Both the position numbers and the translations under genes were made by a program. A DNA stretch of 64,000 nt from Microglena sp. YARC (Eukaryota; Chlorophyta; Chlorophyceae; Chlamydomonadales; Chlamydomonadaceae): the NCBI GenBank assembly GCA_022414725.1, contig CM039465.1, positions 19,673,206 to 19,737,205 of the forward strand, read 5' to 3'. A model generated the notes under the pieces. The model was not told the DNA's origin. It did no database searches and worked only from the letters and a program-made list of their open reading frames with translations. Positions 24,105-49,194 of this stretch are shown here, piece after piece; positions within the stretch are counted from its first letter, which is position 1, and every line of letters starts with the position of its first letter.

Positions 24105-27100
24105 ATGGCACCACCTGCTTCCTCTGGAGCAATAACATCCACTAGTCCTGTAGCAGCTTTCTTTAGGGATGGTTTCAAATTCTGTCTCAGCCTGTTTCAT
24201 AGCGAAAGGGGGCAGAAGGAGGGGGAGGAATTTGACCAGCTGCTAGGGTTTTACCCTACCACGGTCGCTCTTACTGTGAGGACGGCCATAGTTGGCTTGT
24301 CTCAGGCCGTGTCTGCATTCGCAACGTCATTCTCTGAGGTGAGCCTGAGTAGTAACCCCACACGTGTGTTCTATTGTATGAGTTTGATCGTTGCATATTA
24401 GCATGCATTTTTCAATGGTTTTGTTCAAGAGTTGATGTCTGTTTGTGTGTCTGCAGTATGTGTGTCTGTGTCCACAATGTGCATGTTTCTCTGCCGTTTG
24501 TGAGTGTATGCATTCAAGCTGAGGACCCATAGGGCAGTGTTGATTAGACTGTCGTCTGCTGCTTTAGCTGATACACCATGGGCAGCAGGCGTCTTAGGAA
24601 AGGTCTTATTCAACGGGAGCACCTCAGGAACCACTCATTTTTGTTAGGCTCACATTGCACTGTTCACCGTGTACTATTCTGGCTATTCAAGGGTATGCCT
24701 CTGCCTGTGCATATGTGTAGGGAACGGCAACGTGATATTATATGATATCATGTCAACATATGATATTAAATGATGCCGGCAGTCTGACTAGGCCAAAGTT
24801 ACCATTTAAATACAATATCATATAATGCAATTTGTATGATATCATATGATATCATACTCACCTTTGGCCAAAATCAAATGGTATGCCGACCCTTTCATGT
24901 GTGGGGGGCTGTTTCAAGTTATTTCAGGCTAATCAGGTTATTCCAGGCTATTCCAGGCTATTTTAGGCTGTGTGTGCTTATGTGTGTTTGAGACTGTACA
25001 AGTGTATTTGTCGGACTGTAGTTGGAAGCACTTACTCATGGCAAATACATTCCGGCAACATGATTTCTTCCAAAGAGTGAGTGCAGCCTTGAATGCTGGA
25101 GGCATGCTACCGAGTTCAAGTTAAAGTGCGTTTCCATGACTGGCTTTGTACCACAATCAGGCCATAGCTTTTCTTTTCCACTATGAGCAGCAGCTTCTAG
25201 GCAGCTCCTTGAGACAGCCACTGGGTTAAACCCCAAGATTCGAACAGTATTGGACAGATGATTTTGTCAGCTTTCAGATGCACAATGTTGCTTTAGATTC
25301 GGCTGGGAAGCAAGCCAGGGGAGCTGCGTAGACGCTGCTGCTGAAGGCAGAAAAAAAAGCTATGAAACAGGCGTATGCCTAATTTGGCACGCCCTAGCCA
25401 CTAGTATCGCATGCATGCCTTATGTTGCATTCCCTTCCACTTCCAAATTTCCAACTGCACGACTTCCTTCATCCTGAGGTGTTTTCAGTCGCAGGATGGG
25501 TTAGACTAAAAGGTCATAGAAGCAGAGCAAAACTAATGTGGCACGCACTTGCCACTAGTACCGCATGCATGCCTTATGTTGCATTCCCTTCCACTTCCAA
25601 ATTTCCAACTGCTCGACTTCTTGCATCCTGTGGTCTGTACCCACCCACCTGCCCGCCCGCCCGCCTGCCCGCAGTCGCAGAGGGCGGATATCAAGGTAAT
25701 GGCAGCTGAGCAAAAACTTTGGGTGATGTTTGAAAGCGAGAAGCATGCGTGCATGCCTTATGTTGCATTCCCTTCCACTTCCAAATTTCCAACTGCACGA
25801 CTTCCTTCGTCCTGAGATGTTTTCAGTCGCAGGATGGGTCAGACTTCAAAGTCATAGAAGCAGAGCAAAACTAATGTGGCACGCACTTGTCACTAGTACC
25901 GCGTGCATGCCTTATGTTGCATCCCCTGGGACCTCCAAAAATTCCAACTGCATGACTTCCTGCATCCTGAGGTCTTCGCAGTCGCAGGATGGGTCAGACT
26001 TCACGGTCATAGAAGCCGAGTAAAACTAATGTGGCACGCACATGCCACAAGTACCGCATGCATGCTGCATGTTGCATTCCCTTCCACTTTCAAATTTCCA
26101 ACTGCATGTCTTCCTGCATCATGTGGTCTGCACCCACCCACCACCCACCTGCCCACCCGCCCGCCCGCCCACAGTCGCAGGAGGGGGTGAACTTCAAGGT
26201 GATGTAAGCTGAGCAGATCCTATGAGCAGAATCTAATGTGGCAAGTTCTTGCCACTATTATCGCATGTACGCCTGATGTTGCATTCCCTTTGACCTCCAA
26301 CAGTTCCAACTGCATGAATTCCTGTATCCTGTGGTGTTCACCCGCCCACCCACTCACCCACCTACCTACCTACCCACCCACCCACCCACCCACCCACCCA
26401 TCCACAGTCGCAAGAGGGGGCGAACTTCAAGGTGATGGAGGCTGAGCAAAACCTGTGGGTGATGCTTGAGTGTGAGACGCATGTTTGGATTCTGCTGGTG
26501 AGTTGCTGCTGTCCCATGCTGTCCTATTCTCTTCTAAGGCAAATGCATAGGGAATAGCAATATGATGTAATATGATATCATATGATATCATATGATGCCG
26601 GCAGTCTGACTAGGCTTAGTTACCAGTTATATACAATATAATATTATGCAATTTGTATGACATCATATGATATCATACTTGCCTTTGGTCAACATCATAT
26701 GATATACCAGGCCCTAAAAATATGTTTGAGCTTCAGTTTGTAAAATAGTATTGGCAAATTGATAAAATGGCTTTGGTATTGGTAAAATGCGTCAGGTGGT
26801 ACTGCTGCTGTGGATGGTTTTTTTCCGACAAAGGCTGTTCTTGGCTAGGTGTGGGGCGTGGCGAGGCTAATTGGTCATCGAGTTTGTTTGCAGACCTGAG
26901 CCACACTGAATTTTTTCCAGCCACCAGCAGTAGGTTCTACGCAGATCCCTGAAACTGCCACTGGGTTCCGCCTAAAGATTCCAGGAGCACTGGAAACAGT
27001 GATTTTGTTCAAATCTGCAAGTGGTTGTTTTCTAGCTATATGGGTGTAGGCCTCCTCCAGGGACAGCTTGTAGGAGCTTGTATAGCTTTAATAGCTTTTT

Positions 27101-30100: not shown

Positions 30101-31204
30101 TACGTATAAACGTATATTATACGATTATATGTCGGTCCAACCCTAAAAATGAAAGTAGCTGCGGCTGATTTGGACTTGGGCCTCGTAGTACGTAGTTTGT
30201 AGTTTGTACGCACAATTGTCAGGAAAAAATTCCTATGAAGAGCAGAATTGCCAGAATTCTCGATTCTCGACTGCCAAAAAGTGAGAAATCTCAGTCCAAA
30301 TTCTCAAGTTCGAGGTACGAACTACCAACTAGGAAGTGTTTCTAAAAACCAAATCCAAATCATCCGCTGAATGAAGAAGGGCCTCGGCCGGTAAAACAAT
30401 TGTTTGGGGTTCAGTTCATCAGTGCCTTTTCTGTTTAGCCTCGCCTGATATCATAGTTGAGTAATTCCTTTTAGCCTCCAGCATATTTTGATACAAATGC
30501 TTAGATTTTTTATTGCTTTGATAACGTTTGCATTTCCCGTGGTAACTAATTTTACTGCCGAATTTTACAGCAAGCAGCCATATTGCTGGCATGAGCTATG
30601 TAAGCAAGTTCAGATTCTGGACTGTAACAACATACACATGCGTGCTGAGCAGGTCATCAACAAGTCGTGGGTGGGCCCATCGTGTTGTCAGACGGCCGTT
30701 CGTGGATTCCTTCAATCCGCCTATGCCATGCTGGTAGCATTACACTCTCCAATAGAGAAACTGCTGGAACAGGTAAGCTGTGTTCTAAATTCAGGAATTG
30801 AAGGATAAATTCAAATTCAAATTCAAATTATATCCAATAGAGAAACTGCTGGAGCAGGAAAGCAATGTTCTGAATTCAGCTATCAAAGGATAATTTTAAA
30901 TTCAAATTCAAATTCCATATAATAGAGAAACTGCTGGAACAGGTAAGGTGCATTCTGAATTCAGCTATCAAAGGATGTTTTCAATTTCAAATTCCACCCA
31001 ACACTCTCCTGAACATATGTTACTTTTTCTGGGTTGTTTTGCCTAAGTTTGGCTCAATTAGTTGAGCCCTACTAGGGCTAATTTAGCTATTTTCACTACT
31101 AAGGCTAATTTGGTCAGCATTAAACCATTACCTCCGAACCCTAATTATAATAATTATTATTACCGTACTAATATTTATATTAATCTCATTATTATTATTA
31201 TTAT

Positions 31205-31248
<44 letters not shown>

Positions 31249-34200
31249 TTATTATGATTATTATTATTGTTGTTGTTGTTGTATTTGAATGCCTCACCTG
31301 CAGGATCCCACAGTCTCGTCAGCCTGCCGCCTTCTCCAGCCATACATGGATGAACTATTTTTTTGTGTGCGATGCATCGCCATTCCGTCACTGCATGGCA
31401 ACGCATGGGTCTGACTAAACTAGTCAGAAATGCCCCCCGGACCCCCCCCGGCTCTGCGCTTTGCGGGGTTCGGGGCAGCGCGTAGCACTGGGGTCGCACC
31501 AAGTCACTCAATATGCTACTTGAGGCACACAAAACAAACATTGGCCTTCTCAAGCATTACTTGGACGAACTGGAATCTCCCTCGCTACGCCCAGAATGCA
31601 AAGAGCTATTGAATCCATTTTGAAATTGAATTTGAATTTGAAATTGAAATTGAAATTATAATCATGGTTCGTCCTTCAATGCCTATGCTACAGGATCCTA
31701 CCGCCTGGTTTTTCTGCCGCCTTCTTCGGCCATACATAGACAAACTGGGATTTTGCTCGCTGCGCCCAGAATGCAAGGAGCTGTTGAAACCAAATATGAA
31801 TTTGAATTTGAAATCGTAGTCATGGTTTGTATTTGAATGCGTATGCTGCAGGATCCCACCGCCTCGTTGGCCCGCCGCCTTCTCCAGCCTTACATGGACG
31901 AACTGGGATCTCGCTTGCAGCGCCCAGATTGCAAGGAGCTGTTGAAGCCAGATTTGAATTTGAATTTGAAAGCATACTCATAGTTTGTGTTTGAATCTTT
32001 ATGCTGCAGGATCCCACCGCCTCGTTGGCCCGCCGCCTTCTCCAGCCTTACATGGACGAACTGGGATCTCGCTTACTGCGCCCAGAATGCAAGGAGCTGT
32101 TGAAGCCAGATTTGAATTTGAATTTGAAAGCATTCTCATGGTTTGTATTTGAATGCATATGCTGCAGGATCCCACCGCCTCGTTGGCCCGCCGCCTTCTC
32201 CAGCCTTACATGGACGAACTGGGATCTCGCTTACTACGCCCAGAATGCAAGGAGCTGTCAAACTTGGGCAATCCACTTGGGCGCCATGTGGGCCTGCCTC
32301 TTCTCCCTACTCCTAGGCAGACATTTCTCAGTAAGTTGCTGCGTGCTGCACCCACTCCTGTTATCATGTCATCCAGGTGTCTAGAGCTTGGTGAACAGCT
32401 TGTTAGCGTGTGCGTTCATGCCTTGTTTCCCAGGACATTCGTTTCTCAGTAAGTTGCTGCGTGCTGCACCTACTCCCGTTATAATATCATGCAGGTGTCC
32501 AGTGCTTGGTGAACAACTTGTTAGGGTGTGAGTTGGGAGGCACCTCAGGCCTACGCTCAAGCAGATTTACACATTGAAAACTCAATTGTTGAATGGCCCA
32601 TGTGCAAGCAAACTGGTTGGCCCCCTCAACCTCACGCCTCATAATAAGGTGTACCCTTTATTTATTAAATTAAATTTATTTTTATTTGATTTAATTAATT
32701 GTATTTAATTTTGCATGCCTGACTTGCCCCCAGGTGTCCAGTGCTTGGCAAACAACTTGTCAGTGTGGGATGCACCCCATGCATCACACGTACATGCTAA
32801 CATGTAGATTGATTTACTGACACATGCCTACCCTTCCTTGCGCCCAGGTGTCCAGTGCTTGGTGAACAACTTGTTAGTGTGTGCGTTGGGAGGCGCCCGA
32901 CTGCTTCACGGTGTCACTGTCAGCTGGCATGGCCACCTCCTGTGGAGCTCCTTTGCACCTGCCGACTCCACTGCTCTGCACCATTTCTCTATCAGGGCAC
33001 TGTTGCCGGCTGCTGACATCAGCACGCTAAAGGTACGCCACAATTGAGCACAGCACAAATGTTTTTTCATTCAATTGCTTCTCTGAACGGCAAACACACG
33101 GCTTGGTTATAGCAATTCAGGGGATGAACTGGACAAACGTTTCGTACTTCATCGTGAATTGTCGAGAATTCCAGGCCAAATTGTTGAGAATTCTCGGATT
33201 TCCAGGCCAAAATTCTCGACAAAGTACGAAGTACGAGTTCTCGCAGAAACGGTCTGTCCAGTTCATCCCCTGAATTGCTATAATTGGTTGCTTGGATGGC
33301 CACCACCTGTGGAGCTTCTTTGCACCTGCCAACTCAGCTGCTCTGATCCAGCTCGCCGCAACTGAGCAAAAAAAGTTTTTTTCCATTTAATAGCTTCTCT
33401 GAATGGCAAATACAGGGGCTGGTTGATTGGTTGCTTGGCTGGCCACCTGCTGTAGAGCTCCTTTGCACCTGCTGACTCAGCTGCTCTGCACCAGTTCTCT
33501 ATCAGGGCACTGTTGCCGGCTGCTGACCACAGCATGCAGAAGTTTTTTTTTGCGACGCGTCGCCATTCCATCGCTGCATGGCGACGCATGGGGGTCCAGC
33601 TAAACTTGTCAGAAATGCCCCCCCGAACCCCTCAGGCTCTCCGCTTTGTGCTCCGTGGGGTTTGGGGGGCAGCGCGTCGCAATGCGGTCGCACCGAGTCG
33701 CTCAATTTTGCAATGCGTCGCACACAAACAAGGAAGAGTGCAGCATGCAGAAGGTATGGAGTTGCCTAGCAGTCTGCTAGGAGTCTAAGAGCCTAGGAGT
33801 CTGCACTAGGTTTGATCCGTGTGTGTTGTGTGCAGTATGTGTAGTTGATTCCTTGGTTTGTTGATTGGTTGTTTGGCTTGCTATCAGGGCACTGTTGCCT
33901 GCTGCTGACATCAGCTAGCAGAAGGAAATTAGCTGCCTAGCAGTCTGCTGAGAGTCTGGACTAGGACTGAACTGTGTGTACTGTATGTGGTTTTTTATGC
34001 AGTTGCTTTGATGATCGGTTGCTTGGCTTGCTGGCTGGTTGGTTGACTGCTTGGTGGGGGCCACAAATGCGCAGCCCTCAGCCCTTCTGCCCCTCCCCCA
34101 GAGCTGTTCCTCTCAACCCCACCAACTGACCTACCGACCCTCCACACAATCCACCCTTGCCCCCCACAGTCCACCAGCAAGATCAACCCCCTCACAGAGT

Positions 34201-37200
34201 CCCTTCTGTGCTCAAAGCAATGGACAGCAGTCCCCCCTCCCAAGTTTGGGGCCACGAATGCGCAGCCCTCTGCCGTCTTTCCACTTCCCACTTCCACACC
34301 GCCAGAAGTGCACCTCTCAAGAACTTCGTCCGCTGTAGACCACCTGTCCCAGCAGGGTTCACGATCGACATCATCCAGCTCACCGCGCGTTGCCTATTCA
34401 GGCAGGCCCGCGGCGTCCAGTTGCGCGCCAGCTCAGCAGCATTTCCCCGCTGAGGGCTACTTGGTTCCGCGGCTGCGCCAGACTGTCATTGGTAACACTG
34501 CTAGCTGGCAGGTGGGCGGCTCAGCAGGAGATCTCGCGGGAACCTCTCACTCCCAACAACCAGAGGTCGTCAAAAGCACAAGAGTCTGGTTGCAGGTAGA
34601 ATTTGAATTTGAATTGTTACTTTTAATGGTTAATTGTTAATCTGAACCAGAAGCTGCGAAGAGCACAAGCGTCTGGTTAGAGTTAGAATTTGAATTTGAA
34701 TTGTTACTTTTAATGGTTAATTGTTAATTTGAACCAGAAGCTGCGAAGAGCACAAGAGTCTGGTTGGAGGTAGAATTCGAATTTGAATTGTTACTTTTAA
34801 TGGTTAATTGTTAATTTGAATCAGAAGCCGTGAAGAACACAAGAGTCTGGTTGGAGGTAGAATTTGAATTTGAATTGTTACTTTTAATGGTTAATTGTTA
34901 ATTTGAACCAGAAGCCGTGGAGAGCACAAGAGTCTGGTTGGAGGTAGAATTCGAATTGGAATTGTTACTTGTAATGGTTAATTGTTAATTTGAACCAGAA
35001 GCTGCGAAGAGCACAAGCGTCTGGTTGGAGTTAGAATTTGAATTTGAATTGTTACTTGTAATGGTTAATTGTTAATTTGAACCAGAAGCTGCGAAGAGCA
35101 CAAGAGTCTGGTTGGAGGTAGAATTTGAATTTGAATTGTTACTTTTAATGGTTAATTGTTAATTTGAACCAGAAGCCGTGAAGAGCACAAGAGTCTGGTT
35201 GGAGGTAGAATTCGAATTTGAATTGTTACTTTTAATGGTTAATTGTTAATTTGAATCAGAAGCCGTGAAGAGCACAAGAGTCTGGTTACAGGTAGAATTT
35301 TAATTTTAATTTTGAATGATTAATTTTAACCAGAAGCCGTGAGGAGCGCAAGTGTCTGGTTGCAGGTAGAAGTTGAGTTTGAATTGTAAATTTTTAATTT
35401 CCAGTCATTAATTTTAACCAGAATCCGTAAAGAGCACAAGAGTCTGGTTACAGGTAGAATTCGAATTTGAATTGTTGATTTAAATCGGTGGAAAATCATG
35501 CCCCTCCTTATGCCCCACACCACCAGCCACCACACCACACCACCCACAACCACCCACAACCACACACAACCACCCACCACACAACCACTACCACCCACCT
35601 CTCACTCCCAACAGTTAGAAGCCATTTTGAGCACAAGAGTCTGGTCGCAGGTAGAATGTGAATCAGAGTAAAATCATGTCCCTCCATCCCCACCACCAGC
35701 CACCACCACCCACTACCCACCATACACCACCACCCACCTCTCACTCCCAACAACTAAAAGCCGTATAGAGCACAAGCGTCTGGTTGCAGGTAGAATTTGA
35801 ATTGGTGTAAAATCATGCCCCTCCTTATTGCCCACCACCAGCTACCACCAGCCACCACACCACACCACCTACCACTACCCATGACCAACCATCACAGACC
35901 ACCACCCACCTCTCACTCCCAAAAACTAGAAGCCGTCCAGATCACAAGAGCCTAGCTGCAGGCAGAATTTGAATCAGTGTAAAATCATGCCCCTCCTCAT
36001 TCCCTACCACCCACCACCACCACCACACACCACCACACACCACCACACCACCATACACCATCACCACACACCACTAACAACACACACCATCAACAACACA
36101 AAAAGCACCCCAGATATCAAAAACATTACAGTACCTTCTCAACCCGGTTCCTTACTCTGCAGGGTGCCCAAGAACACAAAAAGAACTAACACAAAATCCA
36201 GCAACACAAAAAGCAGCAACAGTAAAAGGACCAACACAAGAAGGACCAACACGAAATGCAGCAACGCCAAACGCAGCTACACAAACATTACTGAAATACC
36301 CAAGACACCACAATACCTTCTCAACCCTGTTCCTTGCTCTGCAGGGTGCCCAAGAACACTTCCAGATGCTCCCCTACTACAACGGCTCCCTTTGTGTGCT
36401 GTTGGTGCTGCATGATGAGGTTTCAGCCAACACCAACACAAAAAGCACCCCAGATATTCAATACATACACCGCAATACCTTCTCAACCATGTTCCTTGCC
36501 CTGCAGGGTGCCCAAGAACACTTCCAGATGCTCCCCTACTATAATGGCTCCCTTCTCGTGCTGCCGGCACAGCATGATGAGGTTTCAGCCAACACTAACA
36601 CAAAAAGCACCCCAGATATTCAATACATACACCGCAACAACACAAAATGCAGCACCACCAAAAGCAGCAACACTATCATAACTTCGAAATCCAAGGCACC
36701 GCAACACCTTCTCAACCCTGTTCCTTGCTCTGCAGGGTGCCCAAGAACACTTCCAGATGCTCCCCTACTACAACGGCTCCCTTCTCGTGCTGCCGGCGCT
36801 GCATGACAGGGTTTCAGCCAACGCCAACACAAAAATCACCCCAGGTATCCTACACACCACAGGACCTTACCAACCCGGTTCCTTCCACTGCAGGGTGCCC
36901 AAGAACACAAAAAGGTCCAACTCAAAATGCAGTAACCAAAAAAGCAGCAGCACATAAAAGACCAACACAAAAAGGGCCAACATAAAATGCAAAACCACCA
37001 AAAGCAGCAACACAAACATGACTAATATATCCAATACACCAAAACACCTTCTCAACCCTGTTCCTTATTCTGCAGGGGCCAGAGCACATAAAGGACCAAC
37101 ACAAAAAGGACTAACACAAATAAGACCAAGCAAAAAACAAAAACTGTTCCTTGCTCTGCAGGGTGCCCAAGAACACTTCCAGATGCTCCCCTACTACAAC

Positions 37201-40200
37201 GGCTCCCTTCTCGTGCTGCTGGCACTGCATGACGGGGTTTCAGCCAACCAGGAAGTCCTCACTATCCTCAACGAGGTCCTTTCGCGGCAGTGCCCTGTTG
37301 CAATTGCCAGCCTCAACGAAACGGTACCACTCCGCAACCTGTGGCACGTCCCTGGATACCGCTACAGCTATTCAGACACTTCCATCAATGCAACGAGGTA
37401 GGATATCCCACGCATGCTTGTACTGAAGGTGCTACTTATAGCACTAGTGCCAAATTACGTACAGGCAGTGCGCGGTTGTGATTACTAGCCTCAGCGAAAC
37501 AGTACCTCTTTGGAACCTGTGGCACGTCCCTGGATACCGCTACAGCTATTCAGACACTTCCATCAATGCAACGAGGTAGGATATCCCACGCATGCTTGTA
37601 CTGAAGGTGCTACTTATAGCACTAGTGTCAGATTACGTATAGGCAGTGCGCGGTTGTAATTACTAGCCTCAGCGAAACAGTATCTCTTTGGAACCTGTGG
37701 CACGTCCCTGGATACCGCTACAGCTATTCAGACACTTCCATCAATGCAACGAGGTAGGATATCCCTCGCAGGCTTTAATTTAAGGTGCTACTTATAGCAC
37801 ACGTGCCAAATTACGTACGGGCAATGCGCGGTTGCGATTACTAGCCTCAACGAAACAGTACCACTTTGGAACCTGTCGAACATCCCTGGATACCGCTACA
37901 ACTATTCAGACAAATCTACCAATGCAACGAGGTAGGATATCCCTCGCAGGCTTTAATTTAAGGTGCTACTTATAACACAAGTGCCAAATTACGTACAGGC
38001 AGTGCGTGGTTGCGATTACTAGCCTCAGCGAAACAGTACCACTTTGGAACCTGTCGAACATCCCTGGATACCGCTACAACTATTCAGACACTTCCATCAA
38101 TGCAACGAGGTAGGATATCCCTCGCAGGCTTTAATTTAAGGTGCTACTTATAGCACAAGTGCCAAATTACGTACAGGCAGTGCGCGGTTGTGATTACTAG
38201 CCTCAACAAAACAGTACCACTTTGGAACCTGTGGAACATCCCTGGATATGCGTCCGACAATGTTTGAAGTTGCATGCACTGCAGAGAAAACCGTTTTGCA
38301 ACCCAGCCCAAAACAGGTGTGGTCAACGGGAGGGAAGGGGGGAGGGGGCGGATAATGGTTTGGTGGTGGTGGTGTGTGAATGGGGTGGGGTGGGGGGGGG
38401 TGGGGGGGGCTTCAAGTGTAAACCATTACGTAACCAGCCCCAAATAGCTGTGGCCAAAGGCCAAACGGGCACCATACTATGATTGGGGTGGGGGGGTGGG
38501 GGGGGGGGGGGGGGGGGGTCTTCGTGAGAGTAGGTGTGGCCACCGGCCACACGGGCTACCGTACTAGTACATACATACATACATACATACATACATACAT
38601 ACATCTATGTATATGTAGACATACATGGATTTCACGCGATTTTTTCGTTCCTCGTGTCAAAGGGGGGCGAGGGGCACGGACAATTGTAGTACTCGAAGGA
38701 CATCGGACAGCGTGTCCGATGTCCGCTGTACTGTACTGTATGACTGGGGGAATTCGTGCAAATTTCGAATCTCACCTTCTGCGCCCTTCGCTTTGCTTCT
38801 CCTTTGCCCTTCGCCTCTCCGAGACCTTCACACACAGCCTTACCTTTCACGTTCACGCACCACAATTGTCTTGCTGTCGTGGTCTACTTTTCTTAACATG
38901 CCGGAAACAAAAATTCAGCCACTCAGCGGGCAAGCTGTTTACCGCCCTCAATGTAGGACAGAGTCCAGAGTTACACAAAGTTACACCGAGGCCGACCGAA
39001 GCCAGCCGTTTCACTGGTGGAGCAATTGAACCTAAAGGGTTCGCGTCGGTTGAGCCATCCGTTCCAAGCCAACTGCCCATGCCTGAAGAGCAAATTCCGA
39101 CCCAAATGACCTGCCGTCCCGCATTCCTGCAAAACTGCGGACATGCTGCTTGCGAACGTGTAAATTGCGCATTTGCCAACCTTCGAGCTCTTAAGAGTTC
39201 AGACCGACGAGCCATGCAAACCAGCGTCGGCGTTGAACAGATGCTGCTAACCCACAGCAGCGCGCGACTTACAACCAGGCCAGGCGGGAAGCTCATGCAA
39301 CCAGTCGTGAAAATCAACGCCAGGTTAATAATCAGACAAGACGTGAACCTCATGCTGCGAGGCCGGCTGCCGCGCGCAATTCGCAACATATCATCCTCTG
39401 CATCAACGTCATGCCATCGCATGGTCTGGTCGGCAGGCAATTATTGTGAGATATTTTTGAATTTCTTCAAACCTCAACTCACTGGCATTACCTACCCTAC
39501 GCGATATGGCCCTTGCAACCCTCATCCAATATATTTTCATTGTTGCAAGCATTGATACATCGGTTGCTTAGCATGTTGCGATGTAAGACTGGCTGATATT
39601 TCCTGGTCAAAACAACAGCTGCAGACCCAAATATGTTCCGCGCAAAGAAAAAGATGCAGGTATGTCGCTTTTGATTGCGCATGCCCGGTATTCTCAGCGG
39701 GGTCGGCTTTCGCAAGCTATTGGCAGGTTGGATCCGCAGCCTGCTCTTTATCCACTTCGTACTTCTGCATGATCTAGGCCCACAGCTGGAAGGGATGAGG
39801 TAGGGAGAAGGGGATAACGCATGCGTGCCGGTGGTTCAGGAAAGAGAGGGTGGGGGGAAGGATCGAGGGTGGCCCACCATGGGTGGAAATGACTGGGGAG
39901 AGGGAGAAAGAGAAAGAGTGTAGATGGGGTGGGAGGGGGGAAGGGGGGCATTTGGGTGGTGTGGAGATGGCTGGGGGGTAGGGGGGTATATTAGGGTGAT
40001 GTGGAGATGACTGGGGTTAGGTGGGGTGCAAGGGGGATAAACAGAGTGTGTGTCAAGGGGGTGGGGATGGGGGGCAGGAAGATTTAGGGGGAAACAGGGA
40101 TCATGTTGGTCCTGGGGGCTGGGGGTGGGGGGTATATTTATAGTAGGGAAAGGAAGGGGGCATGTGTTGGATATTTTGCAAAGGGGGAAACGAGGGGGGG

Positions 40201-43200
40201 GGCAAGAAAAAAGATTTCATACCGCATGTTAGATATGGATAGAAAACCTCGAGCAATAGTTGATACAAAAAAAATCAAGTCGATACAACCACGGACGGCC
40301 GAGATAGAGGGGGGGGGGGGGGGGGGGTCCGACCGTTTTCCCAATTTTGTTTGTGCGGTACTTCGTGTAACTTTCTTGCCAGTGCGAATTTTCGAGCGTT
40401 AAGAGCACCATCGAGAAGGGCTCGACGAGACGAGTACGAATCTGCAATCGTTAGTTGGTTACACCCAGTGTGTAATTGGTGGGTGCCCAGGAAGGCACAT
40501 CCAGGCTGGATGCCAGGCTGGACATCACCTACACCTTCGCGCCCAGCGTCGCACGAGCGGCAGTTAGGCTGAAAAACGCGCGCGCGAAACGTGTTCGTAT
40601 GCGCGTTCTGAATTATGGGCTCTGACGAGGTTCCTAAAGCAGTCGAGCCTGGGGTCTAGCCCCCCCCTCACACCCTCCTCCCCACCCACCACACACACAC
40701 CATCAACCCCACCCACCCCCACCACACCCGAGCAGACCCTCAGGCTCTAGAATACAATTTGAGTGAAATAAAAACATGACAATGATGGTGATAATGATAG
40801 ATAGACAGACAAATAACGCCTTCAGTCCTTTTCATACCTGGGTGATCTCCTCCAAGGGCACGGACTACTAGGGTACCCAAGAAAGTTGTACAAATACTGA
40901 AACCTGAATAACTTGTCCAAACTTAATATTTTTTGCTTTTGGTTGTATGGTTGGAAAGGTCTTGTCGACATGATGCTCATGGACCCCCCTTTCACTATGT
41001 AATACTGCCTGGGTGTCCAGATATGAAGCCTCGGGGGGGTAGGTGGGTGATCGGGGGGAAAAAACAATTTCCGGACATGCGGTCTGCAAACTTTATTCTT
41101 GCCCCCCCCCCCTGGGGGGAAATATCTTGATTGTGTGCATGTGAGTAAGGGGGGGGGGGGGGGGGGGGGGGGGGGCGGGGACATTCAAGGGCGTTGCACG
41201 TTATGTAACCCAGGCCAGAACAGGACCCAGGACCTGGGTGGGTGGGGTGGCGGGTGGCCTCCGGCCACACGGGCAATGTACTAGTACATACATACATACA
41301 TCTATATACATGTAGACATACATGGATTTCTGAGAAAAGTTCGCGAACTTTTCGTTCCCCGAAACTTTTCTTTCTGGCGCTAGCTGGCTTTCAACTTAAT
41401 TAGCGTTACTAATAGCGAATCACCCAACAACCCTCCCTGGCTAGCGGCTGAATTCGCGGGTTAGTAATAGCGTATCTCCCATCTCCCCAGTCCCCACACA
41501 GATTTGGAAGAAAGAGCTGATGAATGCAAAGCCATAAATCTCCTTCCGCATTCCCAATTTTCGAACTGACAAAGCAGATGAATGCGAATCGATCAATTTT
41601 CTTCCGCATTCGATCTGAGCGCCACTGTAGCTCAGACTCATTGTCTACAATCTTTTGCTACTATATGCGCTCAGACTCATTGTCTACAATCTTTTGCTAC
41701 TATATGCATGCATGCGCACAATCAACCAGATTTAGGCAGAAGGCGACGAATGCAGCCAGCAAACTTCTCGATGCGGTCTTCTGCTCATGCTCCACGATGC
41801 GTGCCAACGGTCCTAATGGACATGAGGGCGCGCAACACCGCCAGCCAGCGCTCAAAGTGAGCTTGCCAGAGCAGGAGAGGAAGGGCTAACAATAATTTCC
41901 ACGATTCTACCATTGCCATTTATTTATATCACCATGCTTCTTTTCCTGCGAGCGTAGCCACCATTCGTTTCACGCTTGCGCACTTTCACCATGCCTGTGC
42001 ATCAATTGTGTCACGGTTGGCATCCAGTGGATGCGAGCAGCCATTTCCTTCCCATTTCTCGCACTTGGACCGCTCATCCTATCTACGCAATCTCTTTTCA
42101 TTGTATCGATGATCGTTAAGCACGACGCTGCGATATTATGATTCAGCAGGTGTTGACCGGACGGAAGTCGTAGATGTATACCATATAATCAGGAAACATG
42201 TCCCACGCAGTATGCTGTACCGAGGGCAGAGAGCAGAGTTGGCTGAATGAGGTATTTTGAGGTCAAACAGACATATCCCTGGCCCAATTGCATGTAAAGA
42301 AGATGCTGCAGGCAAGTCGTAATGCGGCGTGAGCCCAGTTTTCTCCGCGGGATTCAATCGTTCGCAAATCTGTGGATTGGATCCGCTTGGTTAAATCACC
42401 CACAGGTCTGCCTTTTGTCCCCCCTTAGTCTTCTTCCCAATCAAACCTCGCAGCTAAAGTGGCAGGGTAGGGAGCGGTAGGGAGAAGAAGGGAAGACTGA
42501 TGAGTGTGTTTGTTTTTGTGGGTTTTGGGCCTTGGGGGTGGGCAGGGGGAGGAGAGAGAGATGGGGAGCAGGGGACGTGTGTGTGTGGTGTGTGTGTGGG
42601 GGGGGATAGATGGAGAGAGGGAGGGTGGATGGGAAGTAAGGGAGGGGGGTTGGAGACAGAAAATAGGAAGGAGGCATGAAGGAGGCGAGAGGGAGGGGCA
42701 AAGAAAGAGGGGAGGAGGGACTGAGGGAGGAGTGTGTGTGTAAGGGGGCGTGGAGGGGTGACATGAGGCATTTTGCTATACGTGCCTCCAGTTTTTGTGT
42801 TTAAAATGCACAAGATATTCATGCTCACACCGGAAATTTCATGTATATACAAATGTTCATCAGGTTTTGTGGAGAAAGAATGAGCCGAAATTGCCCTTAT
42901 GCAGGTTTGCATGGGTTGGAGGGGTGGCGGGTGGCCTCGGCCACACGGGCAATGTACTAGTACATAAATACATACATACATACATACATACATGCATGCC
43001 CCATGCAGATCCTCACCAGCCAAGAAGTCCTCGGCCCTGCCTCCACACCTAACACGGCTTACCTCTAATATCAGAGACAACATGGACAGCTGTTCAGATA
43101 TTGAAGGAGGTGAGACTGTTTAGCTTGTGGTTTGTGTTGGTGTTGGTTGTGTTGGTGTTGGTTTGTGTTTTATGTTGTATTTGTGTTGGTTTTTGTTTGT

Positions 43201-46200
43201 GTTTGATAACATTGTATTTCGTTATGAAAGGATTTTCACCCCAGGAGGTGGGTCTCTCGACACAAAGCAGTGGCGCCGAGGATTTAGTTTGAATGGTGTT
43301 GCCACTCCTACAAAAGAGTAGGCGCAGCCTTTAGCCTTCAGCCTTCAGGCTGCTCACCGACGGCGGCCAGAGTCAGCAAGGGCAGCCCTGATTTTATTTT
43401 CAGCTACAAGCAGCAGCTTCTAGGCAGCTCCCCTGGCTGACTAGTAAGCCAAACCTGATGCAACCTCGTGCACCTTGAAGCTGGCGCAACCAGATTTCCT
43501 GTCCTGTCAATATCTTGGGGCTTGGTACAGTTGCTGGCGCAGGGAGCTGCCTAGAAGCTGCTGCTCTTAGCTGAAAAGAAAAGCTACAAAGTTTAATATA
43601 CACGCTACTCAGCTAGTGTTTCTTTTTTGTGCTATGCATGGCAGCTTCCAGTCAGCTTCATAGGCCAGCCACTGGGTCAATCCCAAAGCTTTCAGCTGCA
43701 TTTTAATGCACTCTATATCAGCTCCCAGGCACACTAGCTAGCTTCAGATTTGGCTCAGGGTCAGGGAAAGGGGGCTGCCTAGAAGCTGCTACGCCTAGCC
43801 CCAAAAGAAACAGTGACTACACCACTATCCTGAGTACATAATAGAATCCCCCCCCACACACACACACAAACACACACCACCACCACTGTCCACCACTATC
43901 CTGAGTACATAATAGAATCACAGGTCTGAAGACAGTTAAAAGACGTGCCCAGGTTAGCTTCTAGACAAGGCCAATTTGGGTGACCAACAGGTGATGCAGG
44001 TGATGTAAAGTGATGCAAAAACAAGTAATGATTTGGGTGATTCTGGTGATTCAAGCGATTCAGGTGATGCCAAGTGATACAAAAACAAGTAGTGATTCAG
44101 GTGATGCAGGTGATGCAAAGTGATGCAAAAACAAGTAATGGTTTGGGTGATTTACACGTGATGCAGGTGATGCAAAGTGATGCAAAAACAAGTAATGGTT
44201 TGGGTGATTTACACGTGATGCAGGTGATGCAAAGTGATGCAAAAACAAGTAATGGTTTGGGTGATTTACACGTGATGCAAGTGATGCAAAGTGATGCAAA
44301 AACAAGTAATGGTTTGGGTCATTTACACGTGATGCAGGTGATGCAAAGTGATGCAAAAACAAGTAATGGTTTGGGTGATTTACACGTGATGCAGGTGATG
44401 CAAAGTGATGCAAAAACAAGTAATGGTTTGGGTGATTTACACGTGATGCAGGTGATGCAGGTGATGCAAAGTGATGCAAAAACAAGTAATGGTTTGGGTC
44501 ATTTACACGTGATGCAGGTGATGCAAAGTGATGCAAAAACAAGTAATGGTTTGGGTGATTTACACGTGATGCAGGTGATGCAAAGTGATGCAAAAACAAG
44601 TAATGGTTTGGGTGATTTACACGTGATGCAGGTGACGCAAAGTGATGCAAAAACAAGTAATGGTTTGGGTGATTTACACGTGATGCAGGTGATGCAAAGT
44701 GATGCAAAAACAAGTAATGGTTTGGGACATTTACACGTGATGCAGGTGATGCAAAGTGATGCAAAAACAAGTAATGGTTTGGGTGATTTACACGTGATGC
44801 AGGTGATGCAAAGTGATGCAAAAACAAGTAATGGTTTGGGTCATTTACACGTGATGCAGGTGATGCAAAGTGATGCAAAAACAAGTAATGGTTTGGGTCA
44901 TTTACACGTGATGCAGGTGATGCAAAGTGATGCAAAAATAAGTAATGGTTTGGGTCATTTACAGTTGATGCAGGTGATGCAAAGTGATGCAAAAACAAGT
45001 AATGGTTTGGGTGATTTACACGTGATGCAGGTGATGCAAAGTGATGCAAAAACAAGTAATGGTTTGGGTCATTTACACGTGATGCAGGTGATGCAAAGTG
45101 ATGCAAAAACAAGTAATGGTTTGGGTCATTTACACGTGATGCAGGTGATGCAAAGTGATGCAAAAATAAGTAATGGTTTGGGTCATTTACAGTTGATTCA
45201 GATGATGCAGGTGATACAAAGTGATACAAAACACGCAATGATTTGGGTGGTTTACAGGTGATGCAGGTGATGCAAAGTGATACCGGAAAAAGTAATGATT
45301 TGGGTGATTTACACGTGATGCAGGTGATGCAAAGTGGTACAAAAGAAAAGCAATGGTTAGGGTGGTTTACAGGTGATGCAGGTGATGCAAAGTGATACAA
45401 AACAAGTAATGAGAACGCGTGGTGGGGTATGGTATTAAGGGAGCCCCGTCTTATGGCGGTGGAAAACGAGCTGCTAAGTGGACACAGCTACCATGGCGGT
45501 TGGCAGCGACCACGAACACTGACCGCTCACCCATAGGGTTTCGAACCCAGCACTTTCATCTGTTCAACGAGCTCAACCATTGAACCATTCGTCGGAACAG
45601 GATAGTTCGCAAAGTGATAACAGGTGATTCAGGTGATAGAAGCAAATACGGAGTGGTGTGTTCCTAGCTTCTAGCTGCCCAGTCTGGAGGGCGGTATGGT
45701 TAAGACCCCGTCGTTAAGGCTTTGGCGACGGGAGTTCTAGCGCCGCTGCAGGAAGACATTGGGTGATTTCTCGAGTCTGATTATTGGGCGGTGTTGTTTC
45801 GCTGCTAGGACATGAGCCCCTTGTAATCTTTCCCTCTAGCTAGCCTTGTGATAGTGTGGTCCCTGCTTTAGCTCAAGACGGCCCCCTCATGGCCTTTCTT
45901 TCCTGCTACGAGCAGCAGCTTCTAGGCAGCTCCCGGGCTCTCTCCTCTTCCAAACCTTAAACAACTAAGTGCACCAGGAAGCTGATATCGTCAGCTTTCC
46001 GATGCTGTAGTCATCTTTGGCTTGGCCCAGTGGCAGTTCCAGGGAGCTGCTTAGAAGCTGCTGTTGGTAGCCAAAAAGAAAAACAGAGTTGAGCCAAAAC
46101 TGATGACCCCCCCACCCCCCACCCAATGCTGTATCACCATACCACAGATTGGCACACCCACCACCACCACCATCACCCACCCACCAAGCAGGTCCACAGA

Positions 46201-47819
46201 CTCACCAACCCACTGTCCTGGGCCCACTAGAGATGCCCCGCACCAGTGGCACAGAAAATTCCCTGGCTGAAACCAACCAACCCTAACCAAATCCAAATAA
46301 GCCTAACAATAGCCAACAATCACACAGGGACAACCAGTAAGCCCCAGGCAAGACTGCGATCGACAACCGAAACGAATATACTGCTACGCTTAGAATTACA
46401 TTACAATGCACTGCACAGGGGGGCGCAGGTCGTCCTGTGGGATGACGTGGGTCATCCAATAACACAGCGCTTAAAAAGCTTTTACAAAAATGCCTGGAGG
46501 TGCGTGGTGTTGAGGGGACCCTTACGTACGCCGCAGCTGGGGAAACTCACCAGGGCTATCACTGGCTACTTTCTCGGACTTGAGTGTGTGCATATCAATC
46601 AATACATAAATAAATAAATGGTTGTCCCCGTTTGCTTGCACTGGGGACAACCACCAAGGGTATAAAATAAATAAATAAGTCAATAGTATGCCTTAGTACG
46701 AGGCTTGCGATAGAGGGGGCCAGCCCGTTTGCTTGCATGGGGGGCAACCACCAAAGTATGAATATATGAGTCTATACTATGGTTTGCCGCCCAATAATAC
46801 TATTTGTTGTAAGAGTAAGTTTGGTCTCAACTTGAGGGACTGGTGTTTTTTACAATCGCCGCGACTCCTCGGTGCAGCGATCCTTTACAGTCCTTCAAGA
46901 TGCCCTTTTATTGTAGACGGACACGGCATAAAAATGAAGATTCAAAACAAGACAATATTCAAAAGAATTTATTACGAGGCTTGCGGTACTGGGGGCTAGC
47001 CCGTTTGCTTGCATGGGGCCAACCACCAATAACCAAACCAAAGCTGCTTCTGTGTGTATGTATGTTACAGTCCGGGGGTTGGCCAAATAGGCTTAAGGGA
47101 CTTGCCCAACCGTGATAAAAAGGGCTAAAAAGACAAAGCATTGATGAACTGACCCCCCCCCCCCCCCCTTAAAACAAACTCTGTATCGTGTGTGCAGAAG
47201 ATACGCTGGAGGTGATTTGCCAGGCTGGAGGTGATGTGCCAGGCTGGAGCGGGGGATGGGTGTGTGCTCAACAATTGGGCCCCCATAACCTAATCAAACC
47301 TACCTATGTTGCATGTTTGCAGGAGACACGATGGAGGTGATGTGTCAGGCTGGAGCGGGGGGATGGGTGTGTGCTCAACAATTGGGCCCCAATAACCAAA
47401 CCAAACCTACCTATGTTGCGTGTTTGCAGGAGACATGCTGGAGGTGATGTGCCAGGCTGGAGCGGGGGGATGGGTGTGTGCTCAACAATTGGGCCCCCAT
47501 AACCAAACCAAACCTACCTATGTTGAATGTTTGCATGAGATGCGATGGAGATGATGTGTCAAGCTGGAGCGGGGGGATGGGTGTGTGCTTGACAATTAAG
47601 CCCCAATAACCAAACCAAAACTACCTATGTTGCGTGTTTGCAGGAGATGCGATGGAGGTGATGTGCCAGGCTGGAGCGGGGGGATGGGTGTGTGCTCAAC
47701 AATCGGGCCCCCATAAGCTAGTGGTGACCTTGGAGCAACCGCCGAAGCCAACTCTCGCCGGAGTAGATGCCCATGTGCAACGTCTCAAAAACACGGTCAT
47801 CAGCGGGGCCTTCATTTAA
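24105..47819 (+). CDS. CCZ1: CCZ1-like subunit of the Mon1-Ccz1 Rab7 exchange factor, 9 exons
   Basis: Exons are 24105-24338, 26408-26497, 30653-30772, 32168-32330, 32848-33032, 34353-34595, 37162-37397, 43075-43109 and 47644-47819 (stop TAA). The phases (0,0,0,1,0,0,2,1) match at every join and give 493 residues, close to the ~500 of plant CCZ1. Family-like blocks follow in order: FKFCLSLFHSERGQKEGEEF and the LGFYPTT longin start (exon 1); FKVMEAEQNLWVML (exon 2); FLQSAYAMLVALHSPI (exon 3); LLHGVTVSWHGHLLWSS (exon 5); STRVWLQ joined to GAQEHFQMLPYYNGSLLVLL (exons 6-7); WHVPGYRYSYSD (exon 7); and a C-terminal domain with LVVTLEQPPKP (exon 9). With Mon1, CCZ1 activates Rab7 on late endosomes, autophagosomes and vacuoles. 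Oddities: 1.48 kb of coding sequence is spread over 23.7 kb, exon 8 is 35 nt, and nearly all splice junctions are tandemly multiplied. The match to plant CCZ1 is from memory of the family, not a database search. Confidence 0.88.
24718..24894. mobile_element. AT-rich MITE (TAGGGAACGGCA family)
   Basis: Starts TAGGGAACGGCAAC and ends near TGCCGACCCTT, with several ATGATATCAT palindromes inside. Flanks CATATGTG and CATGTGTG are a 7/8 target-duplication match. It lies in CCZ1 intron 1. Confidence 0.8.
25168..25366. mobile_element. MITE with GCTTTTCTTTTC ends, CCZ1 intron 1
   Basis: 'gcttttcttttccactatga' with 'gcagcagcttctaggcagct' at the left; 'gggagctgcgtagacgctgc' and a run of A then GC at the right. 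Confidence 0.8.
25390..26407 (+). repeat. Six-unit tandem array at the CCZ1 exon-2 acceptor
   Basis: Units of about 150-180 bp carry 'gcatgccttatgttgcattc', 'cttccacttccaaatttcc' and an acceptor-like 'cagtcgcag(g/a)'. Exon-like starts occur near 25489, 25669, 25826, 25978 and 26172 before the used acceptor at 26407. The unit at 25669-25740 keeps the exon best, but with changes. CCCACC-rich tracts are embedded near 25630, 26140 and 26340. Confidence 0.85.
26548..26716. mobile_element. AT-rich MITE (TAGGGA family), CCZ1 intron 2
   Basis: 'tagggaatagcaatatga' at the left and 'tatgataccaggccctaa'-like end at the right, with 'gccggcagtctgactaggc' inside as in the other copies. No clean target duplication. 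Confidence 0.75.
26915..27640. repeat. Repeat-filled part of CCZ1 intron 2, including a 49-bp tandem repeat
   Basis: 26915-27000 is the left half of the 'agcagtaggttctacgcag' MITE family. 26993-27140 and 27280-27420 match 12525-12785 in part. 27425-27625 is a ~57-bp tandem repeat of about four units with 'aacacagggtcccaggtag' and 'tgatcgctatttgtagcaga'. Confidence 0.75.
27741..28020 (+). mobile_element. tRNA-derived SINE
   Basis: The head has tRNA-like internal promoter boxes: A-box-like 'tggctcaatggttgagctcc' and B box 'gggttcgaatcccc'. The body contains 'cggtcgctgtcaaccgccat' and 'cggggctcccttaatacc', and the end 'caccaggtgttatcatt'. The copy at 61782 matches over roughly 270 bp including the 'ttttagattttgactgagac' segment; a reverse copy is at 45418-45607. 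Not a functional tRNA: no cloverleaf with a plausible anticodon stem can be drawn. Confidence 0.8.
28021..28455. repeat. Poly-G tracts and CAC/CCA microsatellite
   Basis: Near-pure G runs at about 28022-28046 and 28226-28238 are each followed by 'ctctg(c/t)gagtgcca'. 28345-28448 is a (CAC)n tract. Confidence 0.9.
28446..29110. repeat. Three ~215-bp tandem units in CCZ1 intron 2
   Basis: Units near 28446, 28730 and 28950 share 'gaagttcaaaagctggtgta', 'ccgagagtggctaat' and 'gcttta(t)ttatagatataccggat'-like stretches. No coding signal. Confidence 0.75.
29165..30480. other. Rest of CCZ1 intron 2: one dispersed repeat, otherwise nothing recognised
   Basis: 29165-29370 is the 'ccgaccgacc ... gacacgtcagccaac' repeat in plus orientation. 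29400-30480 is AT-rich with 'acgtataaacgtata'-like stretches. Around 30395-30470 it resembles a dispersed sequence ('gttcagttcatca') seen again near 62820 and, reversed, at 47070. Confidence 0.5.
30749..31000 (+). repeat. Three copies of the CCZ1 exon-3 end and donor
   Basis: 'agagaaactgctggaacag' plus 'gtaag' occurs at the used donor (30772/30773) and again ending near 30857 and 30945, period about 86 bp. The middle copy has GAAAG in place of GTAAG, so its donor is dead. The third keeps GTAAGG. Confidence 0.88.
31140..31280. repeat. Trinucleotide microsatellite (TTA/TAG/TTG)
   Basis: A run of TTAT, then (TAG)n, then (TTA)n and (TTG)n lies just upstream of the first exon-4 copy. Confidence 0.95.
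31290..32167 (+). repeat. Four extra copies of CCZ1 exon-4 5' half with acceptor
   Basis: 'gctgcaggatcccaccgcct' (acceptor plus exon start) recurs near 31302, 31690, 31849 and 32008 before the used acceptor at 32167, period about 158 bp. Each copy runs for about 90-100 bp of exon to 'aaggagctgttgaa', then switches to 'atttgaatttgaatttgaaa' intron sequence. Copies 3-5 are nearly identical. Only the last continues into the rest of exon 4 and a donor. Confidence 0.9.
32321..32847 (+). repeat. Array of exon 4-intron-exon 5 junction units
   Basis: The unit 'acatttctca|gtaagttgct' through 'cag|gtgtc(c/t)ag' holds an entire 45-nt intron with both splice sites. Donor copies are at 32330 and 32449. 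Acceptor/exon-5 starts are near 32376, 32495, 32734 and 32847. Exon 5 was taken from the last acceptor because only that copy continues into a long CCZ1-like reading frame. Confidence 0.82.
33033..33990 (+). repeat. Repeated 3' parts of CCZ1 exon 5 and interspersed repeats
   Basis: Pieces of exon 5 ('gctctgcacc', 'ttctctatcagggcactg', 'ttgccggctgctgac') recur near 33290-33357, 33430-33545 and 33880-33930. An inverted repeat with 'gaattctcggatttccaggc' lies at 33110-33280. 33548-33720 resembles 31370-31510 ('cgccattc', 'gcatggcaacgcatggg'). Confidence 0.75.
34050..34352 (+). repeat. Duplicated sequence upstream of CCZ1 exon 6
   Basis: 'gccacaaatgcgcagccctc' at 34060 recurs as 'gccacgaatgcgcagccctc' at 34250, both followed by C/T-rich DNA. 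Part may be polypyrimidine tract for the acceptor at 34352. Confidence 0.65.
34575..35965 (+). repeat. About 13-copy array of the CCZ1 exon-6 end and donor
   Basis: The unit (~87-95 bp in the regular part) contains the exon end 'gagcacaagagtctggttg' plus AG|GTAGAA and intron 'tttgaatttgaattgttac', 'ttaatggttaattgttaat'. The first copy (donor 34595/34596) is used. Later units to 35960 keep the AG|GTAG donor but drift and acquire CCACCA-rich spacers. 'gaaccagaagc' marks the start of each duplicated exon piece. Confidence 0.92.
36000..37161 (+). repeat. Six-copy array of the CCZ1 exon-7 acceptor and 5' exon
   Basis: 'ctctgcagggtgcccaagaa' recurs near 36160, 36343, 36506, 36735, 36890 and, used, 37161. 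Copies 2-4 carry up to ~95 bp of exon 7 (through 'gtttcagccaac') before switching to 'accaacacaaaaagc' intron repeats. The start is a CCACCA/CACCA microsatellite at 36007-36100. Confidence 0.9.
37290..38265 (+). repeat. Six-copy ~175-bp array of the CCZ1 exon-7 end and donor
   Basis: Each unit carries the 3' half of exon 7 ('acctgtggcacgtccctgga', 'taccgctacagctattcag', 'atcaatgcaacgag'), the donor GTAGGATATC, and about 75 bp of intron ending 'attacgtacaggcagtgcg'. The first copy (donor 37397/37398) is used. The last copy breaks off in the exon at about 38250. Confidence 0.93.
38320..38640. repeat. Poly-G tracts and 'ccacacgggc ... tactagtacatacata' repeat
   Basis: G-runs at 38383-38410 and 38484-38519 flank 'gtggccaccggccacacggg', followed by (CATA)n and 'gtagacatacatggatttc'. 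Related stretches are at 41150-41335 and 42900-42998. Confidence 0.8.
38641..40820. other. CCZ1 intron 7, uncertain transposon debris
   Basis: 38860-39560 has long open frames on both strands. On the plus strand one frame is Arg/Gln/Ala-rich with repeated 'RRE'-type patterns (39240-39400), reminiscent of transposon-encoded proteins, but no domain is recognisable. 39740-40200 is GGGGT-rich low complexity, and 40311-40327 a G run. No gene is called. Confidence 0.4.
40821..43074. other. CCZ1 intron 7, low-complexity and dispersed repeats
   Basis: 41147-41177 is a long G run. 41240-41335 and 42905-42998 carry the 'cacacgggcaatgtactagt' plus (CATA)n module. 41625-41705 holds a 46-bp direct duplication ('cagactcattgtctacaatc'). 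42440-42770 is purine-rich. Nothing else is recognised. Confidence 0.5.
43206..43290. repeat. Dispersed repeat 'ccccaggaggtgggtctc'
   Basis: Matches 9160-9225 and, in part, 9830-9860 ('gcggcaccaaggattatgtt'-like). Class unknown. Confidence 0.6.
43392..43588. mobile_element. MITE with 'gcagcagcttctaggcagct' ends, CCZ1 intron 8
   Basis: The terminal inverted repeats 'cagctacaagcagcagcttc' and 'agaagctgctgctcttagct' are well preserved, followed by 'gaaaagaaaagc'. A more diverged relative is directly adjacent at 43620-43812. Confidence 0.85.
43620..43812. mobile_element. Diverged copy of the same MITE family
   Basis: 'tgctatgcatggcagcttcc' at the left and 'gggggctgcctagaagctgc' at the right. 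The interior ('agctgcattttaatgca', 'ctagctagcttcag') matches the copy at 60495. Confidence 0.75.
44090..45300. repeat. 57-bp satellite, about 20 units
   Basis: Unit 'gtgatgcaggtgatgcaaag' + 'tgatgcaaaaacaagtaatg' + 'gtttgggtgatttacac'. Because 57 is divisible by 3, long open frames run through on both strands; I treat these as non-coding. Sub-repeat 'gtgatgca(g/a)' is nested inside. Units at both edges are degenerate. It lies in CCZ1 intron 8. Confidence 0.97.
45418..45607 (-). mobile_element. tRNA-derived SINE (reverse copy)
   Basis: On the minus strand the head reads 'gaatggttcaatggttgagc' with B box 'gggttcgaaaccc', then the same body as at 27741 and ends at the 'accccaccacgcgttctc' side. 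Confidence 0.75.
45891..46082. mobile_element. MITE with 'gcagcagcttctaggcagct' ends
   Basis: Left 'ctgctacgagcagcagcttc' and right 'gagctgcttagaagctgctg' are inverted repeats; the interior has 'aagctgatatcgtcagcttt'. Confidence 0.8.
46380..47165. repeat. Dispersed modules: SINE-like tail and 'cagcccgtttgcttgca' units
   Basis: 46490-46560 has 'tgcctggaggtgcgtggtgt'. 'cagcccgtttgcttgcat' occurs at 46724 and 46996, each preceded by 'gtacgaggcttgcg' or 'attacgaggcttgcgg'. 47070-47165 is a reverse copy of the 'gccaaataggcttaag' sequence (also 21333) and ends in a C run. Confidence 0.65.
47195..47643 (+). repeat. Five-copy array of the CCZ1 exon-9 acceptor and exon start
   Basis: 'gcaggaga(c/t)(a/g)cgatggaggtga' through 'gtgtgctcaacaattgggcc' recurs near 47198, 47323, 47431, 47538 and, used, 47643; period about 107 bp. 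Only the last copy reads on into the terminal exon. Confidence 0.9.
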
Positions 47820-48000
47820 ACACACACACACACACACACACACACACGGGAGTAGATACCCATGTGCAACGTCTCAAAAACACGGTCATCGGTGGGGCCT
47901 TCATTTAAACACACACATACACACACACATACACCGGAGTAGATACCCATGTGCAAAGGCTCAAAAACACGGTCATCAGCGGGGCCTTCATTTAAACCTT
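47760..48000 (+). repeat. Three copies of the CCZ1 coding end
   Basis: 'gagtagat(g/a)cccatgtgcaa' through 'ccttcatttaaa' recurs at 47761, 47850 and 47936, separated by (CA)n tracts. The stop codon of the first copy ends the CDS at 47819; the other two copies are in the 3' flank or UTR. Confidence 0.9.
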
Positions 48001-48409
48001 GGTTTGCTTTCTCGTTCGATCAGTCTGGATCAAAAGTATATTTTGATAATAATTCTGACTTTTCCCAGCTGCACCGTACGGGAGGGTCCCCTTAAAACCA
48101 CGCCCCTCCAGGCGTTATCTTTTTTTGATAAGAATGATGATTAAAGCTTGGGTTGCCGTCTTTCACTTAGATAATGATGATGAGGAGGAGGATGACATTT
48201 CTCTGGTGCCTTACTGGACTCCAAATGTTTTACAATATATTCACATTGCTTCATTAGGAGTCAACTGACTGTAAAGTGCGCGTGGGAAACCCTAACAGTG
48301 GATTACTGTAGGTTACCCGGCACTACACTGGAGGACACGGGAGAACTATCAGTGCCTGCGGCTTTGCGGAGTCAAGGAGGACTTAGGAACATCATTATAG
48401 TACCCCATC

Positions 48410-48797: not shown

Positions 48798-48895
48798 ACC
48801 CCATATGTTTTTACTGTCCGTTGTCAGATGGAGAATGGTGCGTTGTCCTTTCATTTCTTTCGGGCTGCCCACTTTTTTAAATAAGTGGTGCAAAC

Positions 48896-49082: not shown

Positions 49083-49194
49083 GTGCAAACTCCACGAACC
49101 TTATTTTAAGGCGGGCCAATGTCCTTACTTTTTCTTCGGGCAAGTTTAGAGCCCGCCTTAAAATAGGGGTAAAGCTTTCTACAATAGTTATCAT

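Follow-up and report, generated by a model that had tools for sequence, protein, structure and literature searches.

In 1995 the human 6-16 gene was reportedly found to contain a minisatellite with multiple splice donors, each unit of a tandem array holding one, which places several near-identical donors in a row. The same arrangement is present in the green alga described here, in which repeat units include the splice site together with the exon edge, the first trait of a minisatellite of the 6-16 type. The human example is one array in one gene, whereas here about four in ten of the examined exon edges are affected, at donors, at acceptors and at some stop codons. The difference is one of scale, splice sites inside a minisatellite being already known for one gene. 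In potato, a tandem duplication crossing an intron-exon boundary is reported to have produced an intron; it shares with our arrays the duplication across such a boundary, but the new potato intron lay inside the duplicated region, while our arrays lie at the borders of existing introns, and in CCZ1 no intron gain of the AGGT type is evident. Introners (PMC9860276) are likewise repeated DNA which alters intron content genome-wide, but they are dispersed copies of one element, whereas our units are mostly private to one junction and carry exon sequence. For Chlamydomonas relatives, passages of PMC8226300 give median intron lengths of 198-343 bp and make no mention of junction arrays. No report of genome-wide junction arrays was found in the literature, which was covered mostly at abstract level and with few subscription journals.

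Arrays across the exon borders of CCZ1

We rebuilt CCZ1 in the window, by which we mean the whole analysed stretch of 64,000 nucleotides from Microglena sp. YARC (on contig C4, 57.6 Mb, of an assembly of 568 Mb in 2,390 contigs), as nine exons whose phases agree and whose borders are GT..AG (Table 1). Once joined, the exons give matches to Pfam Intu_longin_1 (E 2.3e-12) and to solved CCZ1 chains (best E 7.2e-5), and the nearest named CCZ1 is a Pleodorina starrii protein with 42% identity over 45% of the query. The start of exon 3 was shortened by alignment with the Pleodorina protein and an ENA protein, which removes 26 codons and leaves the phases unaffected, as reckoned from the codon count rather than from retranslation. 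A EukProt protein, P0001, shares 99% identity with CCZ1 across exons 4-7; it is apparently an automatic gene model from the same organism, and three of the inner exon-7 start copies appear in it as additional exons. Each CCZ1 segment is single in two other aligned relatives.

Table 1. Positions in the window of the CCZ1 exons, of the repeats at their borders and of two other arrays
Feature	Position	Strand	Description	Source
CCZ1 exon 1	24105-24338	+	begins with ATG; donor without copies	
CCZ1 exon 2	26408-26497	+		
CCZ1 exon 3	30653-30772	+	start set by homologs	
CCZ1 exon 4	32168-32330	+		
CCZ1 exon 5	32848-33032	+		
CCZ1 exon 6	34170-34595	+		
CCZ1 exon 7	37162-37397	+		
CCZ1 exon 8	43009-43109	+	both junctions without copies	
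CCZ1 exon 9	47644-47819	+	ends with TAA, 47817-47819	
Acceptor-2 array	25379-26483	+	diverged copies of exon-2 acceptor region; ends within exon 2	TRF, alignments
Donor-3 array	30748-30994	+	85-bp unit, about 3 copies, about 25 bp into exon 3	TRF, alignments
Acceptor-4 array	31544-32258	+	158-bp unit, about 4 copies; functional copy last	TRF, alignments
Donor-4/acceptor-5 repeats	32324-32897	+	copies in short intron 4; narrow exon edges (7 bp of exon 4)	
Donor-4/acceptor-5 blocks	32324-32416, 32442-32544, 32723-32770, 32837-32897	+		
Donor-6 array	34542-36079	+	87-bp unit in main part	TRF, alignments
Acceptor-7 array	36087-37248	+		alignments
Donor-7 array	37286-38248	+	178-bp unit, about 5.4 copies; functional copy first	TRF, alignments
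Acceptor-9 array	47171-47720	+	107-bp unit, about 4.6 copies	TRF, alignments
CCZ1 stop-codon array	47758-47997	+	89-bp unit, about 2.7 copies	TRF, alignments
Intron 8 array	43974-45412	+	57-bp unit x 25, off every junction (comparison case)	TRF
Array at putative AIMP1-like exon	18657-19534	-	over upstream end of the exon (18694-18569)	

As determined by an ungapped comparison (50-bp windows, identity of at least 76%, at most 3 kb away), local copies extend across the border at nine of the 16 CCZ1 junctions, namely acceptors 2, 4, 5, 7 and 9 and donors 3, 4, 6 and 7. These are exactly the nine named in an earlier note on this DNA, although its wording that nearly every junction is expanded goes too far, since seven of the 16 are not. 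A stricter gapped BLAST comparison, which demands about 15 bp on each side of the border, found seven of 16 straddled. The two junctions lost are probably the exon-4 donor, because its repeat block reaches only 7 bp of exon (32324-32330), and the exon-5 acceptor, because its block reaches only 11 bp of intron (32837-32847). By the ungapped comparison 366 of 1,017 CCZ1 intron positions (36%) also have local copies, against 56% of junctions, the intron figure counting inner copies of the junction arrays too; junctions thus exceed the intron background, though not by far, and the background is very high.

The repeats form tandem arrays of the minisatellite kind, with head-to-tail units of tens to a few hundred bp, as seen by TRF and in alignments. 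In these alignments the unit crosses the border, the copy continuous with the exon stands outermost and the others lie on the intron side; the claim that the arrays straddle the borders and that the exon-continuous copy yields a CCZ1-like protein was upheld. The donor-6 array holds 11 further copies at 76% identity or more and one decayed copy at 35941, and the acceptor-7 array has seven TGCAGGG acceptor copies including the functional one, which is the last. The stop-codon array lies at a coding end which has no splice site. Families that contain an intron's own donor or acceptor cover nearly all (99%) of intron 6 (2,566 bp); their share is 66%, 50% and 49% in introns 3, 1 and 4, but 15%, 11%, 3% and 1% in introns 7, 8, 5 and 2, respectively; diverged parts of exon 5 reappear in intron 5.

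In the donor-6 and donor-7 arrays the inner copies are mutually alike and the functional copy is different, a pattern which suggests that the first duplication predates amplification of the inner copies. The arrays had been described as independent expansions, which is incomplete: the expansions at donor 3, acceptor 4 and donor 6 may not be fully independent because an (AATTTG)n spacer motif is common to all three. We considered this motif as a shared driver and rejected it, as its 26 overlapping pattern matches all fall at 30810-35124 of the window, in those three CCZ1 arrays, with none elsewhere in loci L001-L069.

Recurrence in kinesin and TCP1 genes

We surveyed exons that were picked by protein family, independently of repeats. 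Kinesin motor exons gave 128 genome matches, several of which are tandem partial copies of one exon, and TCP1 (chaperonin) gave 64; 61 and 46 of these, respectively, were entered. The survey took all entries with loci except L038 and L043, which are single-frame near-full-length matches, and among entries without loci the weak, duplicate and isolated ones were omitted. Splice sites close to the end of each match were assigned with a simple score, which is poor for some of them. Domain-end edges were excluded from the count, the L041 donor edge had no site, and one of the 43 introns inferred, a 24-bp gap, was left out.

Repeats straddled 41 of 100 exon edges in 58 loci (28/49 in kinesins and 13/51 in TCP1), a count in which some loci overlap and the near-identical paralogs L014 and L028 contribute one acceptor twice. 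The proportion was 14/38 at edges for which the neighbouring exon was found and 27/62 otherwise. Among 20 further acceptors with a neighbouring exon, ten were straddled (kinesin 9/15, TCP1 1/5); 19 of the 20 satisfy the neighbour rule, and L074 overlaps its neighbour slightly more. The arrays recur beyond CCZ1 and are real and general in the genes examined. An assembly artefact is unlikely, as the units differ from place to place, the copies are diverged (median identity about 82%) and the largest contig measures 195 Mb.

When all 48 junctions including those of CCZ1 were aligned, 149 of 151 copies lay on the intron side, and the repeats reached a median of 78 bp into the exon (quartiles 59-92). 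Along the edges of kinesin matches, repeat coverage rose from no more than 0.02 within the exon (125-150 bp from its edge) to about 0.5 nearer the edge (50-75 bp) and 0.6-0.7 at the border itself; more than 800 bp out it was 0.37-0.50. For 36 of the 48 border units no match was found in any other examined locus; the other 12 matched another locus, in some cases an overlapping or neighbouring one. An introner-like family, which would consist of dispersed near-identical copies, was rejected on this count of private units. Paralogs L014 and L028 are 98% identical over 1.7 kb and divergent beyond, where a 114-bp unit is repeated about 13 times in L028 and a related, diverged array of about three copies takes its place in L014; this pair makes change over time visible.

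Two side observations concern the surveyed families. At L014 1500-1910 a 128-bp duplication of exon sequence begins exactly at CAG|GT, and the donor bases +3 to +6 derive from the duplicated exon start. The exon end is putative, and this is one candidate for a donor made, and an intron gained, by tandem duplication. In addition, 14 weak matches to the kinesin profile (from about 1-44 to 239-243 of the profile) are single-frame and spread over contigs (C505, C1 at 73349473, C3 at 17624994, C846 and others), unlike the multi-exon kinesins, and may represent a gene family that has dispersed or a mobile element.

Junctions compared with background DNA

By density, the expectation of the earlier note that tandem arrays would be more frequent at junctions than elsewhere in introns was hardly borne out at the kinesin and TCP1 loci. 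The straddled fraction was 0.57 (kinesin) and 0.25 (TCP1) at junctions; intron positions lying 150-1400 bp away in these loci gave 0.48 and 0.27, figures that take in inner copies of junction arrays, so that any junction effect is understated. In 60 kb of random DNA 31% of points were straddled, and repeat coverage in six random 10-kb stretches ranged from 0.02 to 0.56. Exon centres were straddled in 4% (kinesin) and 8% (TCP1) of cases. With the low-complexity filter off, junctions were unchanged, introns rose to 0.55 and 0.32 and random DNA to 0.41. When only repeats of at least 85% identity were counted, junctions gave 0.24 and 0.16, introns 0.16 and 0.09, and random DNA 0.14. Junction arrays (n = 51) and off-junction arrays (n = 95) have a unit size in common, with medians of 185 and 173 bp (KS p 0.35), and are alike in identity (medians 82 and 80%).

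Repeats also straddled the stop codon in five of 13 genes (CCZ1, L049, L060, L092 and L095), or in four of 12 without CCZ1, which had prompted this comparison. Here the stop was taken as the first in frame past the match, and the stops of L041 and L093, scored as not straddled, are uncertain; L096 was dropped, as its stop lies within the match, and L038 and L043 were omitted (0/2), the L043 repeat entering the frame by 13 bp.

These results bear on a mechanism aimed at splice junctions, such as AGGT/CAGG slippage, R-loops or RNA-templated repair, which had been proposed for CCZ1. The straddling of nine of 16 CCZ1 junctions and of 41 of 100 surveyed edges is what such a mechanism would produce, but the density of arrays is much the same in nearby introns of these loci and in random DNA, off-junction arrays are alike in unit length and identity, stop codons are straddled about as often, albeit in a small number of genes, and the repeats mostly start 59-92 bp inside the exon, away from the AG or GT. 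We consider this mechanism highly unlikely.

It had also been proposed that redundant splice sites are kept by selection, which would predict that splice dinucleotides of the copies are retained in preference to neighbouring bases. In 73 copies at 21 junctions, no preferential retention of donor GTs was noticed: identity was 132/146 at the GT, against 1093/1238 for exon and 863/1020 for intron bases (0.904 vs 0.883 in exon; difference 0.014, bootstrap -0.066 to 0.086), and the donor GTs of copies thus vary like the bases around them. At acceptors (106 copies, 36 junctions) the AG was identical at 204/212 positions, against 1617/1789 in exon and 1288/1565 in intron (0.962 vs 0.904 in exon; mean difference 0.057, bootstrap 0.017-0.09). 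This acceptor excess speaks for selection, but it is weak evidence of retention because the copies are non-independent and synonymous change in the functional copy lowers the exon identity which serves as yardstick. We consider selection for redundancy very unlikely, the least probable of the explanations weighed here.

Array starts were counted as well. Between 50 and 125 bp from the exon edge, on the exon side, there were 7-9 per kb, the outermost bin taking in arrays that had begun before the counted stretch; over the final 50 bp of the exon the rate was 1.4-3.4. The first 100 bp of the intron had 3-5 per kb, the intron further in 1.3-2.4 and random DNA 1.36; in verified introns alone, exon-end starts were 1.5-10 per kb by bin (n = 16 starts). 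Junctions are thus hardly special by density, and perhaps special by array starts. We further simulated uniform duplication, with whole-exon events purged and exons changing more slowly. The uniform neutral simulation straddled 6-22% of junctions at intron coverage of 0.16-0.70, and 7-8% and 16-21% near the observed coverages of 0.28 and 0.55, against the observed 25% in TCP1 and 57% in kinesins. A fourfold edge bias raised the simulated value to 46% (coverage 0.66) and an eightfold bias to 67%. The excess over simulation, about threefold at matched coverage, may indicate a bias to coding ends, but is a lead and no result because the simulation omits rate heterogeneity, repeated re-amplification and base composition.

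Such a bias would mean that the duplication process itself favours coding ends, for example through strand invasion or template switching that needs homologue-conserved sequence, or through replication or nucleosome boundaries at exons, and that introns grow from their borders by biased mutation. Besides the threefold excess, which is seen in kinesins and TCP1 alike, the denser array starts in exon ends argue for it, as do the involvement of stop codons and a median unit of 185 bp, close to the nucleosome repeat length. Against it, the simulation is a toy with uniform rates, junction density equals that of nearby introns and off-junction units are no different in length. We regard a coding-end bias as unlikely on balance, though far less so than either of the two preceding explanations.

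Duplication probably tolerated, its consequences and other features of the window

The best explanation in our judgement, with a probability of about two in three, is pervasive local tandem duplication that is tolerated at exon edges. Under this explanation a very high rate of local tandem duplication would act genome-wide, with units mostly of about 100-300 bp. Duplications within or across whole exons would enter the mRNA and be purged by selection, and the low coverage of exon centres fits such purging. Where one breakpoint falls in the exon end and the other in flanking noncoding DNA, a complete exon-proximal copy would remain. Exon definition pairs the two splice sites that lie closest to each other on either side of an exon; the exon-proximal copy would then win in donor and acceptor arrays alike, and if splicing uses that copy the duplication would be nearly neutral. 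Inner copies could then amplify and decay freely, and introns would lengthen outward from their exons. The arrays themselves, their presence in further genes, the placement of copies on the intron side, the unit size in common with off-junction arrays and the like pattern at some stop codons are observed; we infer this neutrality and choice of splice site, as we do the duplication mechanism, which could be replication or repair slippage or unequal exchange. Against this explanation count the low values of the uniform simulation, the array-start rates in exon ends, the junction fractions somewhat above those of introns among repeats of at least 85% identity, and the slight excess of intact acceptor AGs. 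A bolder combination, in which decaying copies of their own junctions make up most of the introns in this lineage, the bias to coding ends is about threefold and the spliceosome picks the exon-proximal site among up to a dozen near-identical ones, is possible but rather doubtful.

About 40% of examined exon edges lie in arrays of border copies. If this is true genome-wide, there would be thousands of natural arrays (an extrapolated, uncounted figure) whose donors or acceptors are distinguished chiefly by where they lie, and the proximity rules of exon definition would be readable from one cDNA data set. The border arrays also offer introns a direct way to lengthen, give rise to doubtful exons in gene models, as with the three in P0001, and may supply raw material for intron gain.

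Some other features of the window were noted. Between 16640 and 23653 on the minus strand lies a probable gene with a tRNA-binding domain like that of AIMP1/EMAP II (tblastn E 5.6e-7 at 16816-16640), of which the putative exon listed in Table 1 is a weak second piece (E 0.077). Long open frames at 51384-57123, also on the minus strand, resemble gag and pol of an LTR (Ty3-like) retrotransposon, a label given by eye. Three repeats of about 190 bp occur within 1 kb, at 48409-48594, 48895-49084 and 49195-49383, and a similar translation is found near 6316-6396.
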